The notes under the pieces were generated by a model that ran no database searches, had not been told where the DNA came from, and was given only the letters and a program-made list of their open reading frames with translations. A stretch of 64,000 bases of DNA from assembly GCA_025057975.1 (NCBI GenBank), contig JANWUV010000012.1, positions 1 through 64,000 on the forward strand. The letters are read 5' to 3'. Positions 26,519 to 27,661 of the stretch are shown here, in pieces; position 1 is the stretch's first letter; every line of letters begins with the position of its first letter. The DNA is from Chloracidobacterium sp. Lineage in GTDB: Bacteria; Acidobacteriota; Blastocatellia; Chloracidobacteriales; Chloracidobacteriaceae. The position numbers and the translations under genes were made by a program.

Positions 26519-27217
26519 ATGACGACGCGCGGACAACAACGCGGCGCCGAGCGGGGAAGCGGATTTCAGGAGGCCATTAACCGCACAAACGAGGCGTATG
26601 AACAACTCGGACGCGCGTGCATCACACGCAAAGCGATTCCGGGCAAATACGTTGTGCCCAAGAGTTGCCGCCGGCGGGGGTTAGTGGTTCCTCCGATGCC
26701 GGCGCTGGCCCATCTGAAAACAGGGGACGCTGTGCCAGCGACGATATTGAGACAAACTTGGCAAGAGGAACAGGCGAGTGACCTCCGCGCGTTTGTGCCG
26801 GAGTCACGCGGTGAACCGGATTACGGCGGCGTGATGGCGCCGACCGGCCGCGGCATTTTCTACGACGCCAAGACGACGAAACGTGACCTGCTGGACTTTG
26901 ACAACCTGCATCCGCATCAGGTGACGTTCTTAGAGCGAATGGGTGCCTGTGGGGCTGTGGCGGGGTTTCTCGTGGAGTTCGCCGGCCACCGGTCGGTGTT
27001 TTTCATTCCGATTCAGCTCGTGACATGCTTTCGTGCAGCCCGGCAGCGGAAGAGCATTCCCTACCGGTTCTGTGCAGAACATCTGACGCCGGTTGAGCCG
27101 GGGCGCGGACTGGTCATCTACGATTACCTCACAGCCATCGAGCGCCAAGAGCAAGTCTATGGGGTGAACTACAGCCGTCTTACGCTGGAGGTGTTATGTG
27201 GCAGTTCATTGCCGTGA
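26519..27217 (+). CDS. recU: RecU-like Holliday-junction resolvase
   Basis: A 232-residue protein with the RecU layout: RGSGFQEAINRTNEAYEQLG at the start, a basic ACITRKAIPGKY segment, then the nuclease motif EPDYGG followed by GIFYDAKTT, and HPHQVTFLERMGACGAVAGFLVEF. The acidic residue in the DAK block is Asp where Bacillus RecU has Glu, still allowing metal binding. RecU is known chiefly from Firmicutes, where it replaces RuvC. Here the insert between the N-terminal block and the nuclease motif is long (about residues 45-95). The family call is good; whether it or RuvC is the main resolvase here cannot be judged. Confidence 0.82.
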   Translation: MTTRGQQRGAERGSGFQEAINRTNEAYEQLGRACITRKAIPGKYVVPKSCRRRGLVVPPMPALAHLKTGDAVPATILRQTWQEEQASDLRAFVPESRGEPDYGGVMAPTGRGIFYDAKTTKRDLLDFDNLHPHQVTFLERMGACGAVAGFLVEFAGHRSVFFIPIQLVTCFRAARQRKSIPYRFCAEHLTPVEPGRGLVIYDYLTAIERQEQVYGVNYSRLTLEVLCGSSLP

Positions 27218-27275
27218 GTTTTTTGGTGTCGCCGTTGACCCTCTGCATCCTGCCTGCGGGGCACGAAATGTGTGC

Positions 27276-27289
27276 GGGGGGGGGGGGGG
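27276..27289 (+). repeat. run of 14 G immediately before a response-regulator start
   Basis: Fourteen consecutive G end three bases before the GTG at 27293. An ATG at 27268 lies upstream of the run and is out of frame with the regulator at this length; 13 or 16 G would bring it into frame. Long homopolymers of this kind vary by slippage, and also cause sequencing errors. Confidence 0.9.
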
Positions 27290-27292
27290 TAC

Positions 27293-27661
27293 GTGCCAAA
27301 ACCGAGTATCCTGATCGCCGACGACGAAGAACTGCTGTGTGAACTCTACGCCGAGTTGCTGTCACCGGAGTACGCCGTCGTCGTGGCGCGTGACGGACGG
27401 GAAGCGTTGGAGAAAGCTCTCACGTTGCCAGGCTTACGGGGCCTGCTGACGGACGTGCGTATGCCTGGCGTCAACGGTCTGCAGCTTACGTTGGAAGTAC
27501 TGGCGCAGCGCCCGGAAGTACGCGCCATCATCATGTCTGGGACGGACATCACAGCGCATGTGCGCCGGATGTTTCCGCCTGATCGCGTAGCCTTTTTGGT
27601 CAAGCCGTTTGAGTTAGACGCCTTGCAACAAGCTGTTTGGCGGATGTTTGGACGCAGGTGA
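27293..27661 (+). CDS. single-domain (CheY-like) response regulator
   Basis: About 122 residues forming only a receiver domain: acidic pocket ADDEE, phospho-acceptor Asp54 in GLLTDVRMPG, Ser in IIMSGTD and Lys in FLVKPFE. No output domain follows. The GTG at 27293 is chosen because the frame upstream consists of the G-run (a GTG at 27272 would add Arg and four Gly plus Tyr). It follows the resolvase gene by about 75 bases. No kinase is adjacent. Confidence 0.88.
   Translation: MPKPSILIADDEELLCELYAELLSPEYAVVVARDGREALEKALTLPGLRGLLTDVRMPGVNGLQLTLEVLAQRPEVRAIIMSGTDITAHVRRMFPPDRVAFLVKPFELDALQQAVWRMFGRR

Follow-up and report, generated by a model that had tools for sequence, protein, structure and literature searches.

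A 14-base G homopolymer in the probable leader of a Chloracidobacterium receiver gene: an unusual and probably incidental tract

Introduction

A run of 14 G (G14) stands immediately before the gene of a CheY-like regulator in a stretch of 64,000 nucleotides from Chloracidobacterium sp. (contig JANWUV010000012.1, assembly GCA_025057975.1; this whole stretch is referred to below as the window). The question raised by this locus is whether changes in the length of the tract switch the regulator on and off, as was proposed in an initial annotation of the same DNA, or whether the tract is an incidental feature of the leader in which it is found. In the present work, we have examined the rarity of the tract, the conservation of the start codon next to it, the consequences of altered tract length for the reading frames and for ribosome binding, and the occurrence of long G runs in other members of the Acidobacteriota.

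Results

The G14 tract and its genomic context

The features of the locus that are discussed in this work are the following (positions are those of the window):

26519..27217, + strand: RecU-like gene (PF03838, E 6.9e-20), found in the same order in congeners
27218..27292, + strand: 75-base leader, from the stop codon of the recU-like gene to the receiver start, delimited by ORF limits
27268..27274, + strand: ATGTGTG, containing ATG 27268, GTG 27270 and GTG 27272, one start per frame, read directly
27276..27289, + strand: G14 homopolymer within the 75-base leader of the receiver gene, read directly in the assembly
27293..27661, + strand: stand-alone receiver (CheY-like) gene of 122 codons, start GTG 27293, PF00072
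27196..27342, + strand: short frame of ATG 27196 and ATG 27268 at 14 G, obtained by translation, overlapping the receiver start

The sequence of positions 27260-27297 is GGCACGAAATGTGTGC-G14-TACGTGCC, and the tract lies, exactly as first described, between ATG 27268 (27268-27270) and GTG 27293 (27293-27295). Within the window, G or C runs of at least 8 bases are limited to this one, the next longest G run having 7 bases, and the whole genome (3,522,876 bases in 86 contigs) contains no second G or C run of at least 11. With four G or C runs of at least 9 found genome-wide against 21.6 expected under a first-order model of the window composition, this genome is poor in long runs and G14 therefore stands out; the same model predicts 0.02 runs of at least 14 per genome. 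The length of the tract is far beyond chance for its genome.

Two other observations on the runs of this genome may be recorded here. The second-longest G/C run is a C10 (G000:C13:13409-13418, locus L105) situated 17 bases upstream of the ATG of a histidine kinase with a PAS domain, whose similarity to congeners starts at that ATG; like G14, it stands before a two-component signalling gene, which may be a coincidence. The G tract itself is flanked by the 6-bp inverted repeat GGCACG/CGTGCC (27260-27265 and 27292-27297), the right arm of which covers the GTG start.

The gene that follows the tract had been correctly recognised as a receiver-only regulator. Residues 6-115 of its 122-residue product match PF00072 (E 1.6e-16), which is the sole Pfam match of this stand-alone receiver without an output domain, and the receiver residues (viz. 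the acidic pair in ADDEE, the Asp in TDVRMPG and the Lys in VKPFE) are all present. Comparisons with the congeners gave dN values of 0.11-0.27 and dS values of about 1 or more, several of the latter being saturated, which indicates purifying selection on the receiver in all of the species, those that have the tract and those that lack it. The RecU-like gene and a metallophosphoesterase lie upstream of the receiver and a convergent gene without a Pfam match lies downstream, and this order is kept in the congeners with the exception of G006, whose 3.4-kb locus yielded no match to the downstream genes. The recU-like gene has at its end a terminator-like stem with a T run (27197-27216), which stands ahead of the receiver and may separate the transcription of the two genes; no promoter match was found between the stem and the receiver.

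Conservation of the start codon downstream of the tract

In five of the six congeneric orthologues (G006, G003, G002, G005 and G001), the codon that aligns with GTG 27293 is itself an ATG or GTG, and the similarity to the receiver begins at this very codon. The remaining orthologue (G004) has GTA at the aligned codon and an ATG 12 bases upstream. Because five of the six orthologues start at this codon, G14 is most likely part of the leader and not of the coding sequence. The leader itself has no evident similarity between species in the comparison with the six congeners, none of which has a G run at this place or a run of at least 12 anywhere in its genome, and a search of viral contigs for same-species sequence gave no match to the G14 flank. 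These comparisons suggest that G14 most likely belongs to an untranslated leader and is specific to its species, which is represented by one assembly; this differs from the position expected of a tract in a frame-shift phase-variable gene, which is within the 5' part of the coding sequence.

Effects of tract length on reading frames and ribosome binding

When the tract length was varied in silico from 9 to 19 G, the receiver frame was found to read the tract as Gly codons at every length and to have an in-frame start before the tract at every length, GTG 27293 itself remaining untouched. The receiver frame meets an upstream start at all of these lengths because ATGTGTG supplies an ATG and two GTG codons in the three different frames, and slippage therefore cannot turn the gene off by frame; lengths at which the gene is out of frame with every start, which constitute the OFF state of a frame-shift phase-variable gene, do not occur in this range. 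The frame assignments first given for ATG 27268 (in frame with 13 or 16 G, out of frame with 14) agree with our computation, in which this codon shares the receiver frame only at 10, 13, 16 and 19 G. At the other lengths it opens a short overlapping reading frame, of 24 codons in the case of 14 G. The frame 27196..27342, which in the length series merges with that of the receiver when the tract has 13 or 16 G, is probably due to chance, since it is without a counterpart in the congeners. A hydrophobic upstream peptide, MWQFIAVSFLVSPLTLCILPAGHEMCA, was considered as a real leader and rejected, as it likewise has no counterpart in the congeners.

It had further been argued that the tract occupies the place of the ribosome-binding site, so that length changes would alter translation either way. 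The pairing computed between the leader and an anti-Shine-Dalgarno sequence, with the 16S tail taken to be of the E. coli type, stays level over tract lengths of 11 to 18 G, and the local folding computed for the region around the start differs little over the range of 9 to 14 G, making this argument a weak one.

G runs in promoter spacers of other Acidobacteriota

As the interior G runs of relatives seemed to follow TTGACA, the pattern TTGAC-N(1-12)-G10-N(0-8)-TANNNT was searched for in 162 Blastocatellia genomes. It was found at 20 places in 12 of these genomes, as against 1 place for the backward-read pattern; the C10 version of the pattern gave 3 rows at 2 sites and scrambling of the first motif to TGTCA left 1 match, in the window's own genome. 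The corresponding search in a phylum sample of 396 genomes, in which part of the Blastocatellia is included, yielded 33 rows in 22 genomes versus 1 backwards. The distance between the hexamers in the 44 distinct matches has a mean of 18.5 and a standard deviation of 2.0, compared with a standard deviation of 4.5 for random placement within the pattern limits, and none of 20,000 simulations (gaps drawn uniformly, base composition not modelled) was as narrow. The matches in other genomes include the following:

Loci L156-L175 and L207-L211: promoter-spacer G runs of at least 10
G203:C84:9027-9054: promoter-spacer G run, TTGACAAATCGT-G10-TATAAT

In the Blastocatellia set, several downstream ORFs start with stretches that, judged by eye, resemble signal peptides or membrane anchors; in Pfam searches most of the downstream ORFs had no match, the exceptions being a multihaem cytochrome-like protein and weak matches of the thioredoxin/redoxin-like kind. 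Promoter-spacer phase variation is known for fetA and porA (PMC5320596), and the Acidobacteriota promoters of sigma-70 type with G runs in their spacers are candidate phase-variable promoters and better candidates than G14. A literature search combining the terms returned no report of promoter phase variation in Acidobacteriota, which is weak evidence. Long G runs of a different origin also occur in the Blastocatellia: in G044 and G045 (loci L131, L176, L179 and L180), G12 runs form one arm of a short palindromic, REP-like repeat, an example of which is CAGTTGCCCCCCGCTTCAGC-G12.

Discussion

We consider it probable that G14 is a real and unusual tract of incidental character, viz. a recent, species-specific homopolymer upstream of a receiver that is translated mainly from GTG 27293. 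Replication slippage would have lengthened the tract within a short non-coding leader, a setting in which long runs are presumably only weakly selected against, and the tract probably still slips, a 14-base G run being the kind of sequence that is expected to do so. Because the main start would lie downstream of the tract, both the protein and its start codon would be left intact by ordinary length changes. Translation initiated upstream would enter the tract in one of three frames, and initiation in the receiver frame would add at most a short Gly-rich N-terminal extension, predicted to be MRGGGGY- at 14 G, MCAGGGGY- at 13 and MCGGGGGY- at 15. Any effect on expression, such as competition from ATG 27268, would be graded and small. 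The direct observations on which we draw are the uniqueness of the tract, its absence in relatives, the conserved downstream start and the three-frame start motif. Points that speak against the incidental reading are the position of the genome's longest tract directly before a regulatory gene, as would be expected of a switch; the fact that ATG is a stronger start than GTG in most bacteria, with the frame of this ATG depending on length; and the use of an E. coli-type 16S tail in the pairing energy model.

Other explanations of the tract have also been considered. G homopolymers are error-prone on several sequencing platforms, the three two-contig congener genomes are without any run of at least 12, and in the assemblies of other Blastocatellia many of the G runs of at least 12 are artefact-like, being located beside N or no more than about 100 bases from a contig end, all of which would fit a tract that is shorter in the cell or whose length was set by poly-G read errors. 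However, G14 is located 27 kb into a contig of 119 kb (118,952 bases), and this interior position, together with a flanking gene order that is the same in relatives, argues against a contig-end artefact and a misjoin. An assembly or sequencing artefact is thus rather unlikely, and the presence of G14 is likely real, its length of 14 being that of the assembly. A role as a promoter spacer, with the tract length tuning transcription, is suggested by the strong enrichment of G runs of at least 10 in TTGAC...TANNNT spacers of the class and the phylum, but we regard it as very improbable for G14, which is preceded by no -35-like hexamer within 12 bases and followed by no -10-like hexamer ahead of the start codon; none of the seven genomes of the genus contains the pattern. 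Promoter-spacer phase variation was rejected for this locus, the tract not lying between a -35 and a -10 and no promoter match being found near it. Two further candidates were set aside, viz. a sigma-54 site at the GGCACG upstream of G14, in which a by-eye check placed GG and GC two bases too far apart, and a recurrence of tracts at receiver starts, for which a GTG ORF right after a G10 in G001 (L122) is no parallel, this ORF being antisense to a gene whose start lies at a distance of 41 bases.

Phase variation of a graded kind, in which slippage sets the receiver level in subpopulations, has more to recommend it. At 13 or 16 G, ATG 27268 would be in frame and give higher expression or a longer N-terminus, and at 14 or 15 G it would be out of frame, its short overlapping frame taking ribosomes from GTG 27293. 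The length of the tract far beyond chance, its position at the 5' end of a regulator and the dependence of the ATG 27268 frame on tract length are consistent with this proposal, as are known systems. In Moraxella catarrhalis uspA1, mRNA changes about 21-fold between 10 and 12 G, and this tract resembles G14 as a G homopolymer of similar length that lies outside the ORF and upstream of the start codon, with an effect that is graded and not on/off and a length that is known to vary (PMC7302503). The uspA1 product is a surface protein, whereas the G14 gene encodes a cytoplasmic receiver. FlgR of Campylobacter jejuni varies by frame shifts in homopolymers within the FlgR coding sequence; unlike these, G14 is not within the conserved coding sequence and is unable to truncate the protein. 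The likeness of FlgR to the G14 receiver is that of the target, a response regulator, which is referred to as phase-variable in PMC9449129 (citing Hendrixson 2006). Of the neisserial phase-variable genes, pilC has a poly-G tract in its coding sequence and fetA a poly-C tract in the promoter spacer (PMC5320596), and both share with G14 a homopolymeric G/C tract near the gene's 5' end. Unlike these tracts, G14 lies neither in the 5' part of the coding sequence, in which a shift would truncate the protein, nor in the interval separating -35 and -10. Against graded phase variation of the receiver stand the in-frame start that is kept at every length, the conserved start downstream of the tract and the lack of a tract in any of the six congeners, and we judge it to be possible but unlikely. 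The original switch idea is accordingly reduced in scope: what survives of it is a graded effect that would depend on the frame of the ATG, and the on/off form is not supported, in view of the same three lines of evidence and of the level anti-Shine-Dalgarno pairing. That G14 represents a young graded rheostat, in which slippage toggles the upstream ATG between being in frame with the conserved receiver and competing with it, seems to us distinctly doubtful.

Implications

This locus provides a caution that a striking homopolymer at the start of a gene need not mean a switch, and it suggests a quick test for such tracts, namely whether each of the three frames carries a start codon. If the rheostat were true, it would provide cell-to-cell variation in a signalling pathway of a phototrophic acidobacterium and would exemplify a broader reliance of the Acidobacteriota on G tracts for variable expression. 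Should the spacer lengths of the candidate promoters described above be found to vary, promoter phase variation would be extended to a large, little-studied and mostly environmental phylum.
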